Positions 21,101 to 53,377 of a stretch of DNA of 64,000 nt are shown here, in pieces (the first letter of the stretch is position 1; each line of letters opens with the position of its first letter). This DNA comes from Clavelina lepadiformis. Its lineage: Eukaryota > Chordata > Ascidiacea > Aplousobranchia > Clavelinidae. The notes under the pieces are model-generated. The model was given only the letters and a program-made list of their open reading frames with translations, ran no database searches and was not told the DNA's origin. Location of the stretch: NCBI RefSeq assembly GCF_947623445.1, contig NC_135246.1, positions 20,084,288 to 20,148,287 of the forward strand, in the 5' to 3' direction. The position numbers and the translations under genes are program-made.

Positions 21101-24100
21101 CGAGTATTTTCAAAGAAAATCAAAGTTTGCAAATCACAGATTCGAAGGCTTGGTTGCTACTGTCATGTTAGCGACAACATCTTCATCAGTCTGATGACAC
21201 GCAATCCACCTACCTTGTACATTGGCAGCAGCGCAGGGCGTGCACGAGTCAGCCGGTGAGCCAATGACGTTTGTGGCATTCACCAGGAAGATGCCTGCTC
21301 TGTCTGACGCGCTCTACTCACATCAACACAACATAAACAACATAAAGTATAATTTCCCAATAAATAACAACTTCGTCGTTTCTAAACTTTGTCATTCAAA
21401 AAACCGTGCCAGCTCCAACATGCAATTCTCAAACAATATGAATCAAAGAGACGATACCTTTTTCTGGAAGGCCCACGTGAATGATAGAGCTGTGTCGTTC
21501 TTCATGACATTGTAAGAGTATGTTTGTTTCTTTTGGTTGCCCCGCCAACTATCCACCACTGTTGTCTCTTTCTTTTTAACATCCTGGATAAAAAGTATGT
21601 ATTCTGACATCACAATGCGCTTTTAACAACAGAATAGCATCACAATGATATAACAATGTGAATGCAGGTGGAGAGACGAAGACGCAACATCAAAACTCTA
21701 CGACAATTCAACAGCACATCCAAAATGCTCTTATCATTATGTGATAAGTTAGACGTGACAGTTTTCCTGCAAAACTGGTTTTGGAGGTGCCAAAGCCATT
21801 AACAGCACACATGTAGCAACTATAGTTATCAAACCAACTAGAAGTGTTTTCTTTACTTTATGGAGTTCCAAAGTGAAGCGTCAGATAAAAATGAATGACC
21901 CGATGCAAATTCACATGTTTATGCAATCAGTGAGACAGTTGCGAGATGGCACCAAAATACCACTTGGCTTCCTGCCAGAGTTAGTGCAGGTGCTCATCGA
22001 AACCCCCCACACCACTCACCTTCATGAAGTAGAGTTGACAATCATCTTCACATTCAAGTTCAAAGACGAAGGTGATGGTGCCGTACACTTCAAAATCATC
22101 CGGCTCCATGAAACCAGACGCGATGGAGAGGATGAGGACCAGGTAAGCTTCCCCAGAGTCCACGTTGGTCGTGCGCACCTGGTCCCCCACAACCTCCCAG
22201 CCCTGCGATGCATTATTAGTCAAGCCACTGTCAAGCAAGTTTGTCGTGACTCGTAAGTAGGGATATCCCAGATATAATTCTGTTTATTTCATGATTAATA
22301 ATGACAAGTTGTTCGACATGAGCGGCAGGTACCAGGTCCTGGTCGCAATCGGTCTGTGACAAGCTGATGCAAGAAGTCTTCATCAGGTCGGGAAGGTGAT
22401 CCCACCAGAGGTAGAAGAACCCATATTGTGGGGAGGTGCTGGCCGGACACTGGAGACAATCTGCGGAAACGAGCCACAACAACGTTTATGAGGAACCAGT
22501 GAACCGTGTCATGCTGCAGCTGCTGAGTCACAGTTGCAGCATAAGATTTTCTTCTAATAATTCACGTCTAAACATACGATGTGTGCCGTTGGAGTAGCTG
22601 TTTGACTTGCACGGTTCACACCCCATCTCAGTCGGGTGAAATCCGGGGTTGCACGGGGAACAAGGCTTCTCCTCACCAGAGGGCGGCAGTTTAACTGAAT
22701 CCTCGAGCGTGTCGAGACAGATTTTGGGTTCAGCCCACCGGTACATTATCATTGTCTGCAAGTAGAATCATGAGAGATATTGAACAGGGCTTGATATTGT
22801 AACGCACGAGATCATTTCTTGAGCAACTCACTGTTTTGTTCTCGTTACAAGCTGTGTGTGTTGCAAAGTAGTCCTTCTCCATACAAGGCGGCTTCTCAAG
22901 GCATTCCTGGTTAGCAGCGGGGGCATATTGCGTCTCTGGGTCACAGGGTTCACATATTGACGCCCCAGGCAAGCTATGGGTGTTGGGGGGACATGGGGTG
23001 CACCAGTGCGAGCCCCGCGACGAAGCAAAGAACCCCGCCTGACACTTCACACACTCGGTGGTGTATGACACACCTGGAAACATAAAACAGGGATCGATCA
23101 GTGACAGGTTTTAATCAGTATGAAAGGTGACATGAGAGAAATTATTTTGACAAAGCGGAAACCTTCCAACCTGTTATTTCGATGTCACGGATCAGCACGG
23201 GGCTCAGTTTCGTTTTATCTCCGAGCAGAATGCCGGTTGTCTTCCAGTACAGGACGTTGGGACCCTTCTTCAAGGTTGCCTGCTCAAGTTTGAATCAAAT
23301 CTAAGTGTTAGAAGACTCGCATAACAAAGCCCACGTTATCAATGGCTGGATATACTACCAAGGGAAGAACACCACAGATGATGATGAAGCTTTTAAGCGC
23401 ATCACCGTCAGCAATTACGCAGACAAAAACCAGCAAAATAAAAGTCACTAAACACAGAGTACTGCGTTGTAAGTAAGTGTCAATACATGAATAATTGGCA
23501 GTGGAAGGGCATAGGCGGCCGTGTTCCGTGATGAATCGGACATTAAATTGCATTGAACAGAAGAGGTTAAATTTCAATGCAGATCTCAGGTTACGAAACA
23601 CACTTCCTCATAGTTTTGACGTCATAGACACCAAGACAATGGCGTGATATGGAAAATGTTTGTGGGATTTTTCAAACAGGGATCCAATATGCGTAATTTT
23701 GCACAACCATATCATGACTGAGTCATTCCATGTTTAATCAACCAATTTTTTTAAATTTTGTAACCATTAGTCACAGATTTTGATGGTTTTGATACATGTT
23801 GCATATATGGATATATGTATATACAGTGAGAACTCGTTAATCCGGACCACTTTGTTTCGTCATAAAATGTTGGTTTAGCGGGGTATCAGGATTATATCGG
23901 AAAGCGAAAAATCAATCAATCTTGCAAATGCAGTCACCGTGTTAACCGTGTATATGAAAATACTTTAACCATTCTACAAAAAATTTCAAAAATTTTGTTT
24001 CGGTGATCATTGGTATTTTTCTAATTGCGTCATCAACTTGACCTTTGATCTTTATTCAAAAAACCTAATTTATTACGTGAAGGAGATGTTTTAGAGACTC

Positions 24101-26411: not shown

Positions 26412-27699
26412 CCGTCAACCGGGGCTACTTTGATTTTGGGGGCTACTATGGTAATAACTATGGTAATACTACTATGGCGGACTGAGACGTGTAGAAAGGA
26501 AAATAGCCTCGTCCAAACAGGCTATAAGCGTAATGTTTTGCGGAAATGGTGCAGGGCAGTTTTTGCCACCAATGACTGTTTATAAGTCAAAGAATCTTTA
26601 TGCAGAGTGGACTCGAAATGGACCCCAAAATGCTTTATACGACCATTCCGTGAGTGGTTGGTTTGACGCTTCTTTGTTTGAAAAATGGTTTTTTGGTTTG
26701 TTTCTGGAAGTTGTCAAGGACACTCCAGGTACCAAGATTATGCTGGGTGACAACTTGGCCTCTCATTTTAGTGAAACAGTCTTGAAGGCTTGTGAGGAAA
26801 ATGACATTAAGTTTGTTAGCCTGCTTCCGAATGCGACGCATCTCCTTCAACCATTGGACGTCAGTGTCTTTGGGCCAGGTAAACGAATGTGGCGTCGAAT
26901 TTTAGCAGAATGGAGGAAAGAGAGTCGTTCCAAAAACTCCATTCCGAAGAATATTTTTCCTATGTTGCTCAAAAGACTCTGTGATGGGTTGAACGAAAAG
27001 CAGCAAAATTTGGTCGCAGGGTTTAAAGCCTGTGGAATTTTCCCAAAAGACCGAGAGCAAGTGCTGAAGCGACTGCCACCTGCCAATTCTCAGCCAGTTC
27101 AAGAAGTGCTTGGTAATGCAGTCGCCACAATGCTTGAGGAATATATTTCACCAAGACAAACAGCATCAAGAAAACGTGGTCCCAAGATAACTCCAGGAGC
27201 AGCAATTTCATCATGAAGTTTGCGTCATCTGCAACCTCTTGGACCCTCCACGAGGTAGAAGCAGAGATGTGGATTGGGAGGGATGTGACAATTGTGATTT
27301 GTGGTATCACAAAATCTGCCTCAGAGACAATGGTGGATTGAGTGCCTCCGATTATTGCAGCTGTGCTTAACAATGTTTTTTTGACACTTATGTTTTTTAT
27401 TGCTGTGATGTTTTGTTTAATGCAAAAAACTATTAAAAAAGCCCCAAGGGAGGGCTACAATGAACATTTTAGGTATTTACAATGTATTATTGTAGTAGCC
27501 CCAACCCAGGGGCTACTACGATAATTTTTTAAAGTTGAATAAAAAAAGTGTGAAAACATAAAAATGAATTTTTTCTATTTTTTTGAGAAGCTTAGGACCA
27601 AAGTGTTACTCATTCAAGAAACAGACCCTTTTTGAGCAACATGTGAGAGAGGAGGCAAAGAAATGTCCTGAATCTTATCATAGTAACCCCGGTTGACGG
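26412..27699 (+). mobile_element. Pogo/Tigger-type DNA transposon, internally deleted
   Basis: A 1288-bp element bounded by terminal inverted repeats: left CCGTCAACCGGGGCTACTTT, right complement CCGTCAACCGGGGTTACTAT. It is flanked on both sides by TA (26410-26411 and 27700-27701), the target duplication of the Tc1/mariner/pogo superfamily. Subterminal 'ggggctact' motifs recur at about 26440-26475 and 27490-27520. It carries the 3' part of a transposase gene only. It sits upstream of the ELAPOR start codon. Confidence 0.9.
26533..27216 (+). pseudogene. DDE_1 (pogo/jerky-like) transposase, 3' half
   Basis: An open frame of 227 residues, the only convincing plus-strand coding sequence in the window. 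It matches the C-terminal half of the DDE_1 endonuclease fold. The second catalytic Asp is in MLGDNLASHF, the third in LLQPLDVSVFGP 35 residues later, and the WRRILAEWRKES helix follows. The N-terminal helix-turn-helix DNA-binding region and the first catalytic Asp are missing; only about 120 bp separate the TIR from the ATG. It is therefore not an autonomous transposase. The remaining frame is intact, which implies recent truncation or a short time since activity. Origin: same family as Tigger, JRK and TIGD genes. Confidence 0.85.
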
Positions 27700-29444: not shown

Positions 29445-32400
29445 TTATAACTTGGATGTTGGTGGAGCTTTCAATCCATCCTTGGAGCCGAGGATGCCGC
29501 TAGTGGTGAAGAAATCGTCGTTGTCGGCTTCGAAAGCTTCCGCCAGAACATCTTCCAACGTAGACACAAACGTAATGCTCAACGTCTTTCTTATGTCATC
29601 GCTGATGTCAGCGTTTACGTCACGTTCGTTACGCTTGGGTAGTAAGATCCGCTTCATGCCGGCGCGGTGGGCTGCTAGGACCTTTTCCTTGATGCCGCCG
29701 ACCTGTGCGGGAAACAAGGGTTTTATGACATAAGTCGTTGCCTAGAGACGAGGTGAGATGCAAATTATCACTGACGTCACATTCAAGCTTCAAAATTTAT
29801 CGACGCGGGACTAACCGGCAGCACCAGGCCGCGTAGAGTGATCTCGCCCGTCATGGCGAGGTCGGAGCGAACCAGCTTCCCGCTGAAGAGGGACACCAGG
29901 GCGGTTACTATGGTTACACCGGCGGAGGGGCCGTCCTTGCCCACAGCCCCGGCGGGGAAGTGCAGGTGAAGGTCGGTGCCTTCGATGATGCTCTTCTCTG
30001 TGCGAGAAGATCACGTCATGAGTGTCGCGCAAAATATTTTCATTTTATCATATTTTTATGGAAAACAAAACAAAAACGTGCGCAATGTGACGCACGTACG
30101 AGCGCCCACTGGTGATAGATGGCATGTTAAAAAATAATTTACTGAAGACCCATCGACACTTCATTTAAATTTTATATCATTATCTTTATGGAGTCGTCAA
30201 GCCACTGACCTCCATGGGAAATCCCCAGCATATCGGCGTTGCTTCGGAGCCAGCTTATCGCTAACTGCGCTGATTCCTTCATGACGTCACCCAGCTGCCC
30301 CGTAAGGGTCATCCGACCAGTGCCAGCCCCTCCGTCACCTCCTGCTTTCATCCTGGAGGCTTCCACGTACAAAATCTCACCTCCAGTCCGCGTCCAAGCC
30401 AGGCCAGCCGCCACGCCAGGCCTGGTCAGGTGTTGGGCGTTTTCTTGATCGAACTTGGGTGGTCCTGACACAATAATAATTCACTATATGACGTCACCAC
30501 AATGTCATCTATGAGCAAATAAAGCCAGGTGCCAGAGCAAAAGTGATTTATCGATCATACCGAGAATATCTTTGAGGTCGGTCTCGTCGACAAATATCTC
30601 CAGCTTGCCCGCTCGCTTGCCTTGTTGCTTGGCAACCTGAAAGTAATACGTCACATCAAGTTCAAAGTAAATCCTATCAAGTATGACCAGGGTGATGATG
30701 TAACTGAAACTCGAATTCTGTTACGCAACCACCATTGTTAAACTTCCTACAGCGATTGTGTTATTATGACGTAGCGCAACGACATCTTATTACGCAGTCA
30801 CGTGACGCACATTGAGGGCTACTGCGCGACACAGAGCGGCCAGCTTCCGGTCGAGGTCACGAACTCCGGCCTCGCGAGTGTAAGACGCGATCGTGTTTGT
30901 GAGGGCGTTGTCGGTGACTCCGACGCAGATGCCGGAGTCTTCCTCATCGCTGGATGGGAGTCCGTGAGCCGAGAGCTGCTTGGGGAGGAGATGTCTCTTG
31001 GCGATGGTTAACTTCTCCTCCTGACTGTACCCGGGAACCTATGAGGAGATGAGCAGTTGAATGGCTGAGGATCGTCGTCAACGATTACGTTATTACGTCA
31101 CAATGCTCACCTCTATGACCTCCATTCTATCGAGGAGGGCTGGGGGAATGGTGGATGCGGTGTTGGCGGTTGCTATGAACAACACCGACGAGAGGTCAAA
31201 GGGCACGTTCAGGTAGTGGTCGACGAAGGTGTGGTTCTGTTCGGGGTCCAGCACCTCCAACAGAGCTGCCCCAGGGTCACCCTGAAGCCCCTTCCCTGCG
31301 ACACACAAGATTTGAATTACTTAGAGTGAGGAATTAAACTCCCCAGCGCGTTAAAATCTTATTTGGGGCAAAATTGGCGGCGAGAGTCAAATTAAAAGCA
31401 GGCGCAGCTTGGTGGGGATTCCCCGGCATACCGAGCTTGTCGACTTCATCGAGTAAGAAGACGGGATTGTTGACTCCGACAGTTTTCAACCCGCTGACGA
31501 TTCTTCCCGGCATGCTGCCAACATATGTCCTTCGATGACCTCTGATATCGGACTGGTCGCACACCCCCCCTTAGTGCAGAGTTTAAAGTTAAATTTACAG
31601 AGCTGGAGATTCTCAGAACAAAAAAGCGAAGCACCGCAACATTAAATCATTGAAGCAGCCGGACACGCACCGAGCGATATTCGATGGAACTTTCTCCCCA
31701 GAGTTCTCGCGATCGATCGCCCCACACTCGTCTTCCCGACCCCGGGGGGACCCACGAAGCAGAGGATCGGACTTCTGACGTTTTGGGACTTTCCCTTCAC
31801 GTGACTTTGCAGTTGGCGAACGGCCAGATATTCTAGAACCCGCTTTTTAAGTTTGTCCATCGAGTAATGATCTTCATCGAGGTCAAGTTTGGCCTTCTCA
31901 AGGTCGAGTCTGAAAGGACCGAGTTCAGGTTCAAGTTTTAGTCAAACATGAGCATCGATAAATTATCGAGCAAGGTCACAGAGGTCAGAGGTCAGAGGTC
32001 ACCTGTCCTTGGTCGAGTTGTTCCAGGGCAGCTCGGTGAGTAGCTCCAGGTAGTTCCGCGTGAGGGCGTGGTCTGGGAGGGCGCTTGGCATCTTCCGCAA
32101 CCTCTTCATCTCTCTGTTCGCCACCTGACGTCATAATAGGAAGAGTTAGGTCGCGATAAATCAAAGAAACACAAAAGTCATCCTTTTACGTCATTTATCG
32201 AGGCCGAGGTTTACGTTCGATGACTCGAATAAATAGGCGGTGAATATGACGTCACAAAGTTGAGATAAACAAACGTGACGTTACCTTGAGAACTTCGTTC
32301 GGCAATCCTGACGAGTTTAACTTTCTTTCCAAAGTCTGAAGTTCGTCTAAAAAACAACAGATATAAGCCCCATGCCCCTGTGTACAAGACTAACATAATC

Positions 32401-35443: not shown

Positions 35444-37795
35444 TCATTCTACCTCAGCAGGTGTCGTTGTCAGTTCTTCTTCGATTAAATTCACGCTTTT
35501 ATGCTTCTTTGCATCTCCGTGGTAATGTTCCGAGGTTTTCCTTCTCAGTCCTTCCACAGTGTCATTTTCTGAATCTGCCCATTCAAGGACAAGTCGTCGC
35601 CCGTACAAGTGAGTCGAGTGGCACAAGGTCTCGAAAGCAGATTTTGCGTCCTGCTTTGTGACAAAATCAACAAAAGCGAAACCTCTGTGATGGCCGCTTT
35701 GCCCGAGATCAGCGCTCAGTTTTTTTGGCAGTCGAACTGACTTAAGTTCTCCGAAAGATTTAAATAAACTTCTAATCTCAGACACATTTGCTTGAAAAGG
35801 AATATTTCGTATCAAGATTTTTGAGGAAACCTGTTTCTTATCTTCCTGTCGTTTTCGATCTTGCCCAACATTAACAGGTTTTTTCCGTTCAGACAATTTC
35901 AATTCGAGTTTATGTCCATCTAAACACAAATTTTGAAGAGTTTTTAATGCTTTTTGCCCATCTGATTTATTTTTAAAAGTCACAAAACCATATCCCATAG
36001 ATAGAAGAATGTTTCTTTTGTGGGTTTTCTTCTTGCTGATGGCACATGACAACAGAGGACCACATTTTTCAAAATGGCCACGGAAAGCTTCATCTGTGGT
36101 TTCGAAGTTTAAATTTTTCACAAACAACGTCAGTGAAGATGCTCCATCCTGCTCATTGTCAGCTTCAACATCCTTCATCACTTCTTCAACTTTGTTCTTA
36201 TTTTCTTGAGGTTTCGGTTCCACAAAAGTTTCCATGGGAGCCCATTCAAGGTATAAAGGTTTGTGGTGGAACTTGCGATAAGCGAGCTTCATGAAAGCAT
36301 TCCTCGCCTCCGATGGTTCGAGGCACTCAACTATGGCGGTCACCCCGGATGGAGAGAGCAGCAATCGGCCAAGCCTGGCGTGTTTCTCGAACATCTCCCT
36401 CAGTTCGGAAGAAGTGGCACCGACCGATAAGTTCTTGGCGATGATGACAGTTTTGCTTCTCTCTGCATTGGGCTGGCTGAAAGCATCGAGGGAGACGCCG
36501 TTATCAATCAAGAAATCTCTCGTTTCTTTAATAATCTGGGTTTCCCCCAGCGCCACTCGAACAGCCGCGCTGTGCTTGTCGGTGGAGGAGAGAATCACGT
36601 TCTTGTCCTCGTTGTATTTCTCTGAAAGCGCATCAGCCACTGAATTTGTTCCAACAAACAATGAGTTCCAATTATGAGAGCTCTGGGATGACTTCTTCTC
36701 CACGGACGCCTTATTCTTCTTGAAAGATGATTTGGCATCAGGATTATTGCTCTCAGATTGTTCAGTCTTAGCTTTTGCTGGCAGGATATGCAGCATGCGA
36801 CCTTGAAATGCCGATCCATCGAGCTCATTGAATGCTTTCAACCCATGCTCTGGCATCATGAAAGTGACGAAACCAAAGCCGACACTTTTATGAGTCAAGT
36901 TATCCAGAGGGATGTTGACTTCCGACAATGGGCCAAATTTTTCGAAATGTTTTTCTAAATCTGACTCAGTGCAAGTGTACGATAAATTACGAACAAAAAG
37001 TCGACCCGTCTCTGAAATATCTTCAATTTCGCAATTGTCATGATCTTCGACGACTTTCTTCATCCACGGCTTGTCTGAGGGTCTCAAACTAACTGGACTC
37101 TGCTTGTCCTTCACTCTGAAAAGCTCGATGTATCTTCCACTGAGGTAATCGCCATCGTGCTTCAGCGATTGTTCTACGTCTTCCTTGTTTGTAAAGCTGA
37201 CAAAGACGGTCCCTGTCCTGTTGCCGTGCTCACTCTTCTGGATGCTGATGCGCGTGATGAGGAGGGGGTAAAAAAATTCTCTAACTTGCTTCTCCTTCAA
37301 ATTGAATGGGCAACCCCGCATCCGGATGTGGTGTCTTACAAAAGGCTCATCATTCTCAGCTGTCACATTATCGAGTTGGTCTTCATCATCACTCAGTGTC
37401 GTTTTGCTCTTCATGAACTCCAAGTCGGAAATTTCAGACTTTGGATGAATGTTTTCATCATCGCTGTTTCTCGAAGACAATTTCTTGTTATTTTCATTTT
37501 CAGCTTCATCATTTTCGTTCTCTTTTTGGAGTTTTTTTGCTTTCTCCTGAACACCGAAGTCTCTACAATTTTCAACGATCATTCGCTGATTGTTCAGCAA
37601 ACTTTTGTGTAAATTATTTCTTGCATTCTCAGCTTCCTCGTTGGCACGATAACCAACAAAAGCAAAACGTCGAAATTTCCCAGATTTGGTGAAGACAAGT
37701 TTGACGTCGGTGACGACTCCATACTGGGAAAACTTCTCCCGGAGTTTATCATCAGTTATCTTAGAAGGTAAATTTTTAACAATTAGCCGAGACAT
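35444..37795 (-). CDS. RBM19: RBM19/Mrd1, six-RRM pre-rRNA processing factor
   Basis: A single coding exon of 783 residues. The start MSRLIVKNLPSK matches the RBM19 start; in-frame codons further upstream are not used because a splice acceptor (ttatttttcag) lies 3 bp before this ATG. Six RRMs at about residues 2-75, 155-230, 263-342, 448-520, 553-635 and 658-738, with RNP motifs such as GRLFVRNLSY/GFGFVTF and SKILIRNIPF/GFAFVDF. Acidic/basic linkers separate them. The family (human RBM19, yeast Mrd1) is nucleolar and needed for 18S rRNA processing and small-subunit assembly. It is somewhat shorter than human (about 960) through shorter linkers. The coding region has no introns although neighbouring genes have many. 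Confidence 0.95.
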   Translation of the reverse strand: MSRLIVKNLPSKITDDKLREKFSQYGVVTDVKLVFTKSGKFRRFAFVGYRANEEAENARNNLHKSLLNNQRMIVENCRDFGVQEKAKKLQKENENDEAENENNKKLSSRNSDDENIHPKSEISDLEFMKSKTTLSDDEDQLDNVTAENDEPFVRHHIRMRGCPFNLKEKQVREFFYPLLITRISIQKSEHGNRTGTVFVSFTNKEDVEQSLKHDGDYLSGRYIELFRVKDKQSPVSLRPSDKPWMKKVVEDHDNCEIEDISETGRLFVRNLSYTCTESDLEKHFEKFGPLSEVNIPLDNLTHKSVGFGFVTFMMPEHGLKAFNELDGSAFQGRMLHILPAKAKTEQSESNNPDAKSSFKKNKASVEKKSSQSSHNWNSLFVGTNSVADALSEKYNEDKNVILSSTDKHSAAVRVALGETQIIKETRDFLIDNGVSLDAFSQPNAERSKTVIIAKNLSVGATSSELREMFEKHARLGRLLLSPSGVTAIVECLEPSEARNAFMKLAYRKFHHKPLYLEWAPMETFVEPKPQENKNKVEEVMKDVEADNEQDGASSLTLFVKNLNFETTDEAFRGHFEKCGPLLSCAISKKKTHKRNILLSMGYGFVTFKNKSDGQKALKTLQNLCLDGHKLELKLSERKKPVNVGQDRKRQEDKKQVSSKILIRNIPFQANVSEIRSLFKSFGELKSVRLPKKLSADLGQSGHHRGFAFVDFVTKQDAKSAFETLCHSTHLYGRRLVLEWADSENDTVEGLRRKTSEHYHGDAKKHKSVNLIEEELTTTPAEVE

Positions 37796-38226
37796 TGCCT
37801 GAAAAATAATAGTAATGTTAAACTCACTTTGCATTGCATCTAAGCAGTGCATGGAATAATTACAACAAGACGAACACAGTGACAGTGGCAATAAATAGAG
37901 AACAAACAATCATCACATTTGAATAAAGCTGTTTGTGTACAACAATGAAGCAAGTTACAATTAGTTATACAATACAGTTATTCTAGTTACAGAACAGTTA
38001 TACACACATTTTGTCCATAAACACACAGCAACAATAAATCAAACAAAAGAAACTTAAGAAAAAGTGCTGGGTTAAAACTTCTTTTTATTTGACTAAACCA
38101 ACACACAAATTCTGTGCTATCCGCTTTAAACGGCCGACTAATTTCTTAGATTTCTCATCAACACAAACATAGCCAGCCATTAACACTGTTTTCAAGGTAT
38201 CACGTCGGCCATGATAGATGCTGCCA
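37796..38226. other. Gap between BORCS8 stop and RBM19 start
   Basis: 431 bp without coding signal. It contains the acceptor just upstream of the RBM19 ATG and the BORCS8 3' UTR. No convincing donor for a local RBM19 5' exon could be identified by eye. Confidence 0.4.
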
Positions 38227-47097: not shown

Positions 47098-48105
47098 CTT
47101 CACATTTCACGATCTCTTAAATATGTTGTTCTCAGGGTTGTTATGATCTATCTCTTGTCATTCATTCAAACTCTCTCTAATCCAAAACTCTAAATCCAAA
47201 ACTCAAAGCTCAATACTGAAAAACTGAAATCATAGCATGCATCGGTGCATCGTACAGATATACACTGAAGGAAAGAATAAAAGAAACAGAATTTCAAGTT
47301 GTGGCGCAATTGCGCTTAACAAAACAGGAAATGATTTGGACTTTTAGGCTCGAAGATTTACAGGTTGACAAGTGTGAGGTTATCTTAGTACAATAAGTTC
47401 AAAAGTGTAGGGTAGATCACATGTTTACGGACCAGATTGTCAATCAACTATTCTTCAATGGGTTAACAATTATGTCGTGAACCGAGAATGAACTTACGGC
47501 AAGTATGACGTCATGTAATAACAGAGCGGTAGACAGCAGATACATAATTATAACGTCACAACTTGGAAGACAATGGAAACAGCTGAAGTAACACAAATAT
47601 CAGTTCGGCAAAAAGCGATTAACAACGCGGCTTAGAGCGTAAAAAACTGCAGGTTACGTTTAGAACGTCCCTGACATGGAATGAGATTTAGGCAGACGAC
47701 AGAGGAGGAATTTTGCAGGATTTTGTGCTCAGCTTACAGCCATGTATGTGGTTTCACAGTGGCGCTATAAAATATGTTATTGTGTATGATGAGATTTTTC
47801 AGGAAAAATGTAAAGCAGTTGGCTAAGCTGTGAAAAATGTACAGATACAGTTACACTACTGGGGAAAAGCAATAACATCTTCATCTACATCTTTTACGTA
47901 TAAACAACCAGGTGCGTACAAATTCTACTAAATTATTGGAACTTTATGGAATGTAGAATTGGGTTCAGAACCCGTTGTAATACGACAACTATCCGGTGAC
48001 AAATCTTTAAGACTTATTCTTTTCTCAAGTAAATTCTTGCCGGGTCTGCATCTTGATCGTATTCAATTTCAACCTTCAACTCCTAAACATCAGTTAGTAA
48101 GTTAA

Positions 48106-51100
48106 TTAGAAGTGGATGTCGCCATAGAACAAGGCGCTTACTGGCTGTCGGGATGAATTGTTCTTAAATAGCACTTCTGTGACGTCACTTACAGTTTTGC
48201 CAAGAGAATTGAGAGCTCTTTGAAGATCTTTTTTCTCATCATCGCTGACATTCCTGTAATTTCCCTCACAGCGGCCGGCAAAGGCGAACCACAGATCCAA
48301 TTCCTTCTCGACCTTGCTAAGGATCCCGCACAGTTTGCTGACGTCATTATTTTGGAAGTTGTTCACGCCAATGTGCAATTTATCAATCTGGTATTGTGAC
48401 ATCATAGTTTACATAAGCTGGCCTCAAATTAATTGAATAACTGGATAAACTATTCGCAGTTAGAATCACCTTCCCCGGCATTTCATTGATGGCTTTGCAT
48501 ATGTTGTTCAGGGCGTGGCTGTCAAGTTTGCATTCTCGTAAGTTCAGTTGTCTGACATGCTTGTCCACACGCTTCAGCACAGAGCACAGAACATAGACAT
48601 TGCTCGCAGTGAGAGGAAAGTACGACAATGACGTCTCCACCGGGAAGTATTCCGCTGCAGCTTTCAACATTTCCTCATCGTTGCATTCCAGAATATCGTT
48701 CCAGAGATCAAGCAGCATGTATTTGCCGAAGGACGCTTCTAAACATAAAAAAAAAACAATCAAAGACTATTACAGTGTCTCATAACGTTGACAATTTTTA
48801 CGTCAAATTTACCGATTGGTCCTTTGTCATCAGCTTGGTTGTCCCCTTTAAGCGCGCTGTTAACCAAACAATGATGGTGATTATTATAAAACAATTAAAA
48901 TTGATTCTAAGCAAAAATCAATTGTTTCACCACAATTTTAATTAAAACGAACTTAAAAATCAGCATTCAAATCTTTCACAAACAGAGAACAGTGCTTATG
49001 ACATCACTGAAGTGACCTGCACTGGGGGAAGAACCTCCGATGTTCTTCATCTGCTGCGTCTCCTTTCTTCCAGAAGCGAACAGCGCCACCACACTTGTAG
49101 CATTGCACGCGGTCTCCATCTCCGAGGTAGAAATAACCCGTCTTTGCCAAGTCTTCGCCCCTCATTGCCTGGTTGGTCCATTTCCCAAAAGTTGAGCTGA
49201 AATCGGTCAAATTTCTTGTTAGGTCGAAAGCCACAGAGATATGCTTCCAGGTCAACTCACACTCTGTCTTCTTCTTTACTAAGATCCAAGCTCTCAAGCA
49301 AGGTTTTGTGATCAGGTTCCTTTATAATCGACTTTCTCAAAATCTGTTTCATGCAAAACACAAAGAACAGCCGTGTTATTAATATATCTCTTCAGCAGCA
49401 CAATATCCGAGGTAATACAGTCACTTGCTATAGCAGCGAGTGTCCACTCACTCGAATACCTGTTGTTTAGGATCCATGTCAGAATCATCATTCTCAGGAG
49501 TGAAGTTGTTGTAAAATGAGCCGTCACCTGCAGTGAATTTACATCAATCATTTGCTTTGTTCGCATTATGCTTGGGTACTTACCCATGCTATCTAGCACT
49601 TTGAGAAACTTTTCCTTGTACATTGCTCTCTTCTTGCCGACATCACCTCCTAAAAATGTAACTGGTTACGGTAAATCGTCGATAGAGAAGTGCTGTGGTG
49701 AAATATCTATACCAGTTTCCTCTTAAAAAATTCACCTTCAGCTTTTCCAGTATCCAGCAGGAGTCCAGCCAAGAATTTTCTCACCATGGACCAATGAGGA
49801 AGAAAAAGTTTTTCCTTTAAAAACGAGCCGAATTCTTCCAGAGACATCATATAAACGATGTAATAGGCACAATAATATTCTTGCAAGTTTTGGTGAAAGA
49901 AATACAATTCTCTCTCCCCTTCCCACATCCTGCTGTCCTTTGCGTTAATTTCACTGAACACTACCATGATGTCTTGCATTTCTTCGACTTTGATTTTAAA
50001 GTCCTTGAGTTGCTTCTCATTGATAACTAGAACACGCCTCTTTGTGATGTCAAACGCAATTTTCGCAAGTTGTTTGGTAATTTTATCCAGATCTATTTTA
50101 CTGTTTTTGGAATGTCGGATTTTATGGAGAACGGTGCAAAACATGCGCGTCATTGAGGAAATTTTGCCAATTTCTTTTAATGGCTCAAGACAAGCTTCCA
50201 CACAAAACCTGAGCATCAGAGGATTGAGGCATAAGTCAATCATGTGAGGAGAACTTTGCTTCAGGTGTCTCCACAACTTGTCAAACTCGTCACGCGCAAA
50301 AACCTGGAAGAGCCGCTTCATATCTTTGTAAGCTAGACCCTGAAGAAAGTAGGTGACCTTTGGCCTCATTGGTACAGGTAGAGTGAACATACTGTGGGGC
50401 CTGGAGGTGAAAATAAGCCACGACTTTGGCAAAAACGTCCTGCCACAGAGGTTGGCAACAAGCTGGGAAATGTGAAATTTAGTTTTGTATCCACCTCGGA
50501 GACAGTTTTCAGGCAAGTTCCAGTTTTTTTGGTCGTAACCGTCCATCACAATCATGCACTTCTCGCTGTTCTTTGTCACCCACTCAAACACTTTGCTGCG
50601 AACACTCTCATCCAAATCTGGATGGAAATAGTTGATCAGCAAATCTTGTAACGTCAATTTTTCTTCGTTTGGGTAATTTAATTCCATAAATGGGAGGAAA
50701 AAACATAAAACAATGTTTAAAAATTCGTCAGATCTGGCAATTCGTTTGGCCAAAGTGGTTTTGCCAGTACCAGCAGCTCCAACAAAAGCAGTAAATTCAT
50801 GAGGTGGACATTTCTTTGTCAGATCTTCAAATTTCAGTTCGTTTGAAAGATCTTTCTCGTAAGTGTCTTCCTTTCCATCAGACGGCCGGTACTTGTCTCT
50901 CATGTCGTGTTGATTGGCTTCGTAAAGATTAAACTTGGACATTTTCGGATGAACGACCGGCACCTGAACGCCTTCACAGCCCTTGATTGCCGGTATTTCA
51001 AGGTCATTTCCACGTTCACGTTTTTGAGCTTCCTTAAATATTTTTAGAGCATCTTCCACTGAAATTTCTACAAAATGTCAATCGAATGAGAAATTATGTT

Positions 51101-53377
51101 AAAAGCGTCAGGTGCTTGAGGATTTCAAATCTTTATCAACATCAAAACCCAACCAAAAAGTTGCCAAGGAGAGTATGTTCTACCCAGTTGCCAGCGCATA
51201 TATTGTTAACATGCTGAAGCCAACTAAGGAAAGAGGTTTCAATCAGCAGCAGCAAAGGTTGGGAACACACGATGAAGCGTCATTATATGGGATTGAATGC
51301 TTTTGTAATTATCTCAACAAAACTAAATAATCAATAAGAGAAAAAATTCACCAGGTCTTCGCCTCTTCGCAGATGGGGGATGATCTTCTAAAATAAATAA
51401 AATTTTGATCACATGATGCAGTGGCTAAACAAAGACAGTGAAGATACAGCAATGTTTGTAATAAACTTTAGCAGCCATCTTGTCATGCCCATCCAAACTA
51501 ACTACTGCAATACAACATGGTAATACATAAAGCTCTATAAATAGCTTGATTAGTTGTGGGTGCATTTAGATCAGTTAATGGCTTATTCAGAAAATTCTAT
51601 TCATCGTGCAATATCTATTTAATCGAAGAGGTTGTTTCCAAAAGTAACGTTTACTCATTCTGGGCACATTCAAACACAATTGTGGGCATATTTGGTATCT
51701 CCTGTTCAACACAATGGCTTGCGGTGAAAGCATAGCACAGGCGCCTCTATCAAACAGGAAGTGGTAGGAAGCATACATGGCTGGAAAATGCCACTGCTGC
51801 CCTTACACAAACACACGCCATGAACAACAGACAAAAATTGAGATGGTGTTTAAATGCTGGAGGTTTTATCAAACTCTTTCTGTGCACACTTAAATGACCC
51901 GACACAATGCATTAATGTTTTCATACAAAAATATTTCCGGGTATTAATACAGAGAGATGCTGTTAATTTCCTGGTTTTGCGTTCTGGTTTCTTTTGTAGG
52001 TCGTGGATTTGTAGGACACGTGACATGCGATGCATTGTATGCAAAATGTGAGCATGGTGTAGTGCTTATGCCTTGCCACATCTGCAATTCAAATTAATTT
52101 TCACGCCAAGACTGGACGTTAATTACGGGAATACGGACGATTTCTCTAGCACGTCAACGCTTTGATGCAATCACAAAACTTTAAAAAAACACAAGTTCTT
52201 CACACCCTGCTGTATAATGTGTATAAACCTCGTATGGTGCATTGGTGAAGTCCACATCATAGAAAGCTAACTTACCATTACGTTGCTTACGGCTATTGTA
52301 TTCAAAAAATAAACTTTATCTGTGTTCGGTATTCCACTACTCTAAGTGGGATCTTTTGGTGCGCATCATGCAATCGTGGTTTGAAGAGTCTGCAGCGGCG
52401 GTGCCATTTCTTTATCGTTTGTGGTTTGTGCATTTACTGGAGTTGGTCGCCACAAAACAAATTCCATCATCACGCTTAGAAACTTTTTACAAAGGTGCTT
52501 TCCCCATTTCATAAACCCACGCTGACGTCGTTAAGCTATTTCACAGTTTTCCACCAGGTTCACATTTGCTTACAGTTGCACAATTAATCATAATTTCGAG
52601 GAAATACAGATCCAACCAAGCAAAAAATTCAAATCTTGGTCCGGAAAATAAAAAACATTTTCATCGTCTGTTGAAAGTAAATCAAATATATGGGGATGAC
52701 TTGGACAAAGCAATAAACACAAAAGGGAACCAACACACTTTGATAACAAACACTCCATATAATACTAGGCGGTTGACGAAGCCTGCCTTATACAAATAGC
52801 TCAAATAAGTTGTATTGTGATGGCACAGTGGCCAACAAATAGTCACGCATAAGAATGTTTCTATTGTCACAACTAACTGAGTCCGGAAAAACTCGATAGT
52901 GACCAGATATAAAACACAAAGCCCTACACTAGTTATTTTTATCGACTTAAAAACTTCTTTTGCTAAATCAAACTTATAATGATACAATAGAAGGCCTAAG
53001 AAGGCTCCAAACACGCGGCATAGAAACAAACAGTATCGAGTTAGACGCTGTCACAGCAAATCCCACACAAGCGGTCACGCATCAAGTTTCAAAATATCAA
53101 AAGTAGATCGCACCTGTATCGTCGGACTGGAGTGTCTGGAAGGTGTCTATGATCTGCACGTTGCTCCCATCAATGTGAAAGTGGTTTGTGACGTTGGAAG
53201 GTGCTGCTGAAATTATTATTTGAGAACAGAATAAAAATTCAAAAAGCAGGTAAAAATCTTCATATGTCGTTCGCTACAGTCAATTGAAATGAAACGTGGC
53301 ACAACACAGCCAGGCGCCAACTTACCTGCCGGGTTCTGAGAACTTCCTTCTTCGTCGCTGCTAGAATCGGAACTCAT
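48106..53377 (-). CDS. NLR protein with NACHT, BIR and LRR domains in that order
   Basis: Eleven exons: 53377-53326, 53206-53114, 51387-51352, 51067-49736, 49649-49584, 49527-49460, 49343-49261, 49196-49017, 48856-48813, 48738-48470, 48387-48106. Phase agrees at every junction and the sum (2505) gives 834 residues. Order: a Ser/Asp/Glu-rich start, a short SNVQIID motif (exon 2), a basic SAKRRRP patch, then NACHT with Walker A GAAGTGKTT (about 157-165), Walker B MDGYDQ (235-240), sensor FTSRP, and an FHQNLQEYYCAYY helix. A linker leads to a full BIR (about 573-637): TGYFYLGDGDRVQCYKCGG, W619, GD, zinc ligands C609, C612, H629, C636. Two RNase-inhibitor-type LRRs follow (VRQLNLRECKLDSHALNNIC and IDKLHIGVNNFQNNDVSKLC). 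NLRs are cytosolic sensors that oligomerise through NACHT. NAIP has NACHT, BIR and LRR but with BIRs first. Not an orthologue of any gene I can name. Intron 3 lacks recognisable exons. Confidence 0.9.
49017..49261 (-). other. BIR domain exon region of the NLR
   Basis: Part of exon 8 (49196-49017), with the preceding EEDRV coming from exon 7. All BIR zinc ligands are present. By alignment with XIAP BIR3, the pocket positions are Trp (FWKK), Asp in place of the Glu, and Phe in place of the second Trp, so an IAP-binding-motif groove is plausible but modified. The 49205-49260 part is the intron between the two exons. Confidence 0.85.

Follow-up and report, generated by a model that had tools for sequence, protein, structure and literature searches.

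The window analyzed here is a stretch of 64,000 nucleotides (nt) on contig C7 of the 209-Mb genome of the light-bulb sea squirt Clavelina lepadiformis, an ascidian tunicate. On its minus strand, from position 53377 to 48014, 12 exons with AG/GT borders join in one frame to encode a protein of 828 residues. As read from its sequence, this is one intact NLR gene of the large ascidian NACHT-HD2-LRR family, with a single BIR domain located between NACHT and LRR. Taken jointly, this domain architecture and the capture of the BIR as part of an exon block appear to us highly probable. The exons are listed below with their intron phases at the 5' and 3' borders.

Exon 1, 53326-53377, minus strand: begins with the ATG (53377); its N-terminal stretch lacks confident modelled structure
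Exon 2, 53114-53206, minus strand: phase 1 to 1; CAG/CAG acceptor
Exon 3, 51352-51387, minus strand: phase 1 to 1
Exon 4, 49736-51067, minus strand: phase 1 to 1; NACHT with Walker A GAAGTGKT, Walker B MDGYDQ, TSR and the FFHQNLQEY motif; start of HD2
Exon 5, 49584-49649, minus strand: phase 1 to 1; HD2 helix KKRAMYKEKFLKVLDSM; final exon ahead of the inserted block
Exon 6, 49460-49527, minus strand: phase 1 to 0; 68 nt; opens the inserted block
Exon 7, 49261-49343, minus strand: phase 0 to 2; 83 nt; similar to the pre-BIR exon of the Clavelina IAP P0013 and of locus L020
Exon 8, 49017-49196, minus strand: phase 2 to 2; 180 nt; BIR domain with CX2CX16HX6C
Exon 9, 48813-48856, minus strand: phase 2 to 1; 44 nt; closes the inserted block
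Exon 10, 48470-48738, minus strand: phase 1 to 0; last HD2 helices (LLDLWNDILECNDEEM) and first LRR-like unit
Exon 11, 48193-48387, minus strand: phase 0 to 0; LRR-like units
Exon 12, 48014-48082, minus strand: carries the stop codon

The corresponding NCBI model, LOC143465733 isoform X2 of the same species, has 827 amino acids and is identical over its full length, minus one Ala that sits at the CAG/CAG acceptor of exon 2. A preliminary description of the locus had counted 11 exons and 834 residues, because its reading ran past the donor at 48192, in the last intron, to a stop at 48106 and missed exon 12. Its coordinates for the NACHT exon (51067-49736) and the BIR exons (49343-49261 and 49196-49017) agree with the present model in AG/GT borders and frame. 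That a single gene has the order NACHT, BIR, LRR-like, as it proposed, is supported by the in-phase joins, the matching NCBI model and relatives that are colinear with the window protein.

Domain organization and predicted structure

In a Pfam scan of the 828-residue protein, NACHT (PF05729, E 7.9e-16) was matched at residues 154-319, ahead of a BIR (PF00653, E 2.7e-16) that occupies residues 576-639 and covers profile positions 1-69 of 70. The BIR has the complete zinc ligand pattern CX2CX16HX6C, with three Cys and one His, which agrees with the preliminary description; it is the one BIR stretch in the protein and the one BIR match in the window. Behind NACHT, a winged helix and HD2 were recognized with a family profile that matches NLRP3 (profile 168-610, E 8.8e-28). 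With the single sequence, no Pfam LRR family was matched, E values as high as 10 being admitted. The family profile matched ribonuclease inhibitor (E 6.7e-15), and strands and helices alternate in an LRR-like manner at residues 685-826 of the predicted model. A C-terminal LRR is present and short, as indicated by the family profiles and the model and not by single-sequence Pfam matches. Among the three families named in the preliminary description, NACHT and BIR were found with Pfam, and no LRR family was matched in the single sequence. The BIR had also been placed at the junction of the superhelical and LRR regions; it does lie between NACHT and LRR, and its position can be refined to the interior of the helical region of HD2.

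A structure search with the predicted model returned NOD2 and, tied with it, NLRP proteins as the closest folds, with the NOD2 match covering residues 61-820, whereas NAIP5 rows rank lower; there is no NAIP among the family-profile matches listed. Pfam detected no effector domain N-terminal to NACHT and no RING family among its 14 matches, and a scan with NCBIfam gave weak P-loop matches only. Residues 1-57 have no confident structure in the predicted model. Among ten family members scanned, those without a BIR likewise have no recognizable N-terminal effector, except the Clavelina paralogs P0027 and P0038, which carry a TIR before NACHT (TIR_2, E 2.1e-24 and 6.7e-22). Segments of NVQI/NVNI type, noted by eye as a possible amyloid-type signalling motif, occur before NACHT at window positions 53114-53377 and in P0021, P0033 and P0042.

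Insertion site within HD2

In the relatives, a helix matching KKRAMYKEKFLKVL is followed by a short linker and then by a helix matching LLDLWNDILECNDEE. Intron phase was worked out for three of the eight paralog loci fetched (L071, L073 and L075), and all three have a single phase-1 intron at this junction. In the window gene, the same two exons that flank the paralog intron are separated by exons 6-9 (375 nt, phase 1 to 1), such that the empty paralog intron marks the point where the block entered. Across the junction, Ciona P0005 and the Clavelina paralogs are colinear with the window protein, each as one protein.

No BIR was found in any of the 15 relatives followed through the junction, namely, Clavelina P0015, P0017, P0020, P0021, P0022, P0025, P0027, P0042, P0050 and P0052, Ciona P0005, Phallusia P0033 and Styela P0009-P0011. 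For P0020, P0025, P0052 and the three Styela proteins, absence was assessed from the Pfam column and by reading the sequence, and for the others by a Pfam scan. P0038, the end of which diverges before the junction, P0054, P0057 and unnamed short open reading frames (ORFs) fall outside this set. In a broader list of 63 proteins, the Pfam column gives PF00653 for the window protein alone; many of the other entries are short ORFs that stop close to the NACHT exon and would not reveal a BIR behind it. Gain of the BIR is favored because the domain is absent elsewhere, not because of tree topology.

Origin of the BIR block

The 5' border of the BIR exon lies one base plus two codons upstream of the first conserved Phe and its 3' border two bases past the last Cys, in phase 2-2. 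The same borders were found in six other loci of the genome (L019, L020, L034, L050, L051 and L054) and in the second BIR of P0013. Furthermore, exon 7 resembles the pre-BIR exons of P0013, with the same phase 0 to 2, and of L020 (p 0.0002 and 0.0004, respectively; 5000 shuffles). These two matches alone stood out in 15 comparisons of exons 6, 7 and 9 with five exons around the BIRs of P0013, L020 and L038. The start of the P0013 pre-BIR exon is provisional, since with GT/AG borders the exon would encode an additional Ala that P0013 lacks; both readings are compatible with phase 0. When the C-terminal 308 residues served as query (2077 candidates), the window protein and P0013 were retrieved, and no other protein at E <= 0.01.

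Because the borders of the BIR exon and the preceding exon match Clavelina IAP-type genes, the four-exon block in HD2 was likely captured by exon shuffling. According to a study on clams, BIR exons with conserved borders are thought to move there as multi-exon modules, most BIRs in those genomes spanning two exons (PMC7831173). Out of the 149 BIR matches listed for the Clavelina genome, 35 short regions, some with two BIRs, were retrieved, together with larger regions for a few; L078-L080 were not used. Since the nearest BIR among those compared is only 49% identical to the window BIR (41% for the second BIR of P0013), no donor gene stands out among them and the event is hardly recent.

BIR domains near NACHT sites in the Clavelina genome

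A same-strand BIR lies within 100 kb of 3 of the 107 NACHT sites collected (97 from one search and 10 more from a second, many of them near-copies and not independent cases). In one case, the window gene, it is behind NACHT; in the other two, both on contig C5, it is in front. The underlying counts are lower bounds, with 150 of 183 BIR candidates and 97 of 137 NACHT candidates scored. Whether the order NACHT-BIR-LRR is already common had been raised as a question in the preliminary description, and, with one occurrence in 107 sites, there is no sign that it is. The two loci on C5 (L019, 3380-9634, and L020, 332-7908; C5:16.36-16.39 Mb) are mutually inverted and contain BIR, NACHT and LRR exons in the NAIP order. 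L020 also has a pre-BIR exon, and its exon phases are compatible with one BIR-NACHT-LRR gene. The best match of the L019 NACHT among solved structures is NLRP3, and the NACHT of neither locus is among the 71 matches listed for the window protein (55 of 372 candidates scored).

Outside these loci, BIR matches are densely clustered at C7:10.68-10.94 Mb, more than 100 kb away from any of the NACHT sites collected. At several places, among them C3:5407222/5414191, C6:15111751/15117286, C7:16685746/16692640 and C9:4983296/4994315, two equally scoring BIR matches lie in opposite orientation 5-11 kb apart, as they would in a repeated mobile element whose inverted arms encode BIRs. The window itself further contains a DDE_1 transposase-like ORF (26467-27213, plus strand; E 5.9e-19) and, on the minus strand, a gene for a multi-RRM protein (35447-37909), a Lon protease exon (30175-30480) and an ELAPOR1-like exon (21984-22283).

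Interpretation

The placement of a BIR between NACHT and LRR defines a variant of NLRs, single so far, and the roles proposed here for the BIR are predictions. In NAIP5, the ligand is held by BIR1, HD1, HD2 and the insertion domain, as described in PMC5752844 and, for human NAIP, in PMC10803261; hence, a BIR within HD2 could sense or gate. The two uses suggested in the preliminary description, recruitment of caspases or IAP-binding motif (IBM) peptides and direct sensing of a ligand, would both be compatible with the anatomy. Under the model that we tentatively prefer, at a confidence somewhat short of even, the window gene encodes an NLR in which the captured BIR block acts as a sensing or gating module. 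As suggested by motifs and fold, the receptor would be switched by ADP/ATP exchange, with the BIR integrated at the hinge between HD2 and LRR. A peptide or protein bound by the BIR, perhaps in a groove of the IBM type, would part HD2 from the LRR, and NACHT would then oligomerize.

Several observations weigh against this model or its components. The full-length model has a pLDDT (predicted local distance difference test) score below 50 at residues 529-652, that is, over the BIR and its linkers, and an isolated, single-sequence model of the BIR (pLDDT 70.6) yielded no PDB match when E was limited to 0.001, nor was a BIR present in the 50 rows listed for it. For these reasons, the placement of the BIR in the fold is provisional, and its assignment rests on sequence, with the isolated model set aside. 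The groove position occupied by H in the BIR2 of XIAP is F in the window BIR, and the long linkers that flank the domain would equally suit a passively tethered one. With respect to capture, the borders of the BIR exon differ in L037 (at the 3' border), L038, L043, L048 and the third BIR of P0013, and exons 6 and 9 showed no likeness to IAP exons in the 15 comparisons. Finally, in the NACHT tree the window protein is part of an unresolved polytomy, and its branch is long.

The best surviving alternative, which we consider possible but unlikely, is that the BIR is an output part: at the rim of the oligomer, the BIRs would gather caspases or other IBM proteins, replacing the absent N-terminal CARD, PYD or TIR. 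The complete zinc ligands, the lack of a Pfam effector before NACHT and the absence of confident structure at residues 1-57 are all in line with such a role. However, the lack of an effector is not special to the window gene but is shared by the BIR-less members scanned, bar the two with a TIR, and so does not decide the role of the BIR.

Somewhat less probable still is the view that a permissive loop of HD2 tolerates the BIR as a passenger, functionless or spliced out of most transcripts. The loop is indeed variable, with a repeated segment at the junction in P0042 and a long extension just ahead of it in P0027, and the frame would be kept without exon 8 (768 amino acids) or without exons 6-9 (703 amino acids). 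Nevertheless, although the nearest BIR compared is no more than 49% identical, the window BIR has kept near-full-length similarity to the Pfam profile as well as its zinc ligands, which suggests purifying selection. Moreover, no shorter form of the window protein is among the search matches listed, these being searches that score only candidates sharing words with the query.

An ancestral origin of the block, with later loss from the relatives, seems to us improbable. The tree position is compatible with it, and the relatives with 41-43% identity (P0002, P0003, P0004 and P0014) are short single ORFs in which downstream exons are not visible, but the BIR is absent across the junction from the Ciona, Phallusia and three Styela proteins as well as from ten Clavelina paralogs, and the phase-1 intron is undisturbed in three paralogs. 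Two adjacent genes or an annotation artefact, finally, can be dismissed almost entirely, given that every join keeps the phase and has AG/GT borders, the NCBI model is the same, and both flanks are present in one protein in Ciona P0005 and colinear in the Clavelina paralogs.

A broader extension of the preferred model, in which the BIR in HD2 is a sensing or decoy module, is rather doubtful as a whole. It holds that ascidians fused BIRs to NLRs more than once, independently of vertebrates, through an IAP block that entered HD2 here and NAIP-like fusions at two other loci, and that the logic of the module might be comparable to that of the integrated domains of plant NLRs. If the fusions are independent, it becomes testable whether sensing or output is the reason for which BIRs are joined to NLRs.

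Comparison with known systems

Among known NLRs, fusion to a BIR is the mark of NAIP (NLRB1, BIRC1), which, like the window gene, unites a BIR with NACHT-LRR in a single protein; the top PDB sequence matches of the window BIR are also NAIP entries, with scores summed over their BIRs. However, NAIP has three BIRs, all N-terminal to NACHT, and PMC2323615 gives the human order as BIR-NACHT-WH-SH-LRR, whereas in the window protein NACHT (154-319) is followed by one BIR (576-639). A NAIP ortholog was rejected, as neither domain order nor BIR number fits. The preliminary description had contrasted the gene with NAIP and suggested a separate origin. The difference in order stands, with the addition that L019 and L020 of the same genome have the NAIP order, and the separate origin is backed by the different place of the BIR in the protein, by closest folds of NOD2 and NLRP above NAIP5, by the empty intron in three paralogs and by a BIR exon with Clavelina IAP-type borders.

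NOD2 and the NLRP/NLRC receptors have no BIR in HD2 in the known architecture (PMC2323615), whereas the window protein has one, together with a short LRR and no recognizable CARD or PYD. According to a 2025 paper, BIR domains do not occur in invertebrate NLRs (PMC11797021). The order NACHT-BIR-LRR is not mentioned in the titles and openings of abstracts listed in searches of the literature, closed journals and preprints excepted; these lists were capped (20 of 91, 25 of 287, 8 of 9, 30 of 306 and 15 of 43) and give no proof of absence.

The window BIR has the Cys/His set of IAPs, but the C-terminal RING, which occurs in most, although not all, IAPs, was not found. The IAP-like P0013 of Clavelina has three BIRs, as read from its sequence, and, by the Pfam column, a RING; its second BIR shares exon borders and phase with the window BIR, and its pre-BIR exon is similar and likewise in phase 0 to 2. 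Unlike the window protein, P0013 has no NACHT or LRR, and the window BIR has closer counterparts in other BIR genes of the genome (49% versus 41% identity). Ciona intestinalis LOC100175027 (P0005) and Clavelina P0015 are NACHT-HD2-LRR-like proteins that run colinearly with the window protein before and after the junction and lack the BIR; L073, a P0015-type gene, has one phase-1 intron at the insertion site. L019 and L020 are from the same genome as the window gene and, like it, combine a phase 2-2 BIR exon with NACHT and LRR exons, but their BIR is in front of NACHT. A single tunicate genome thus shows BIR and NACHT-LRR exons in apparently two orders.
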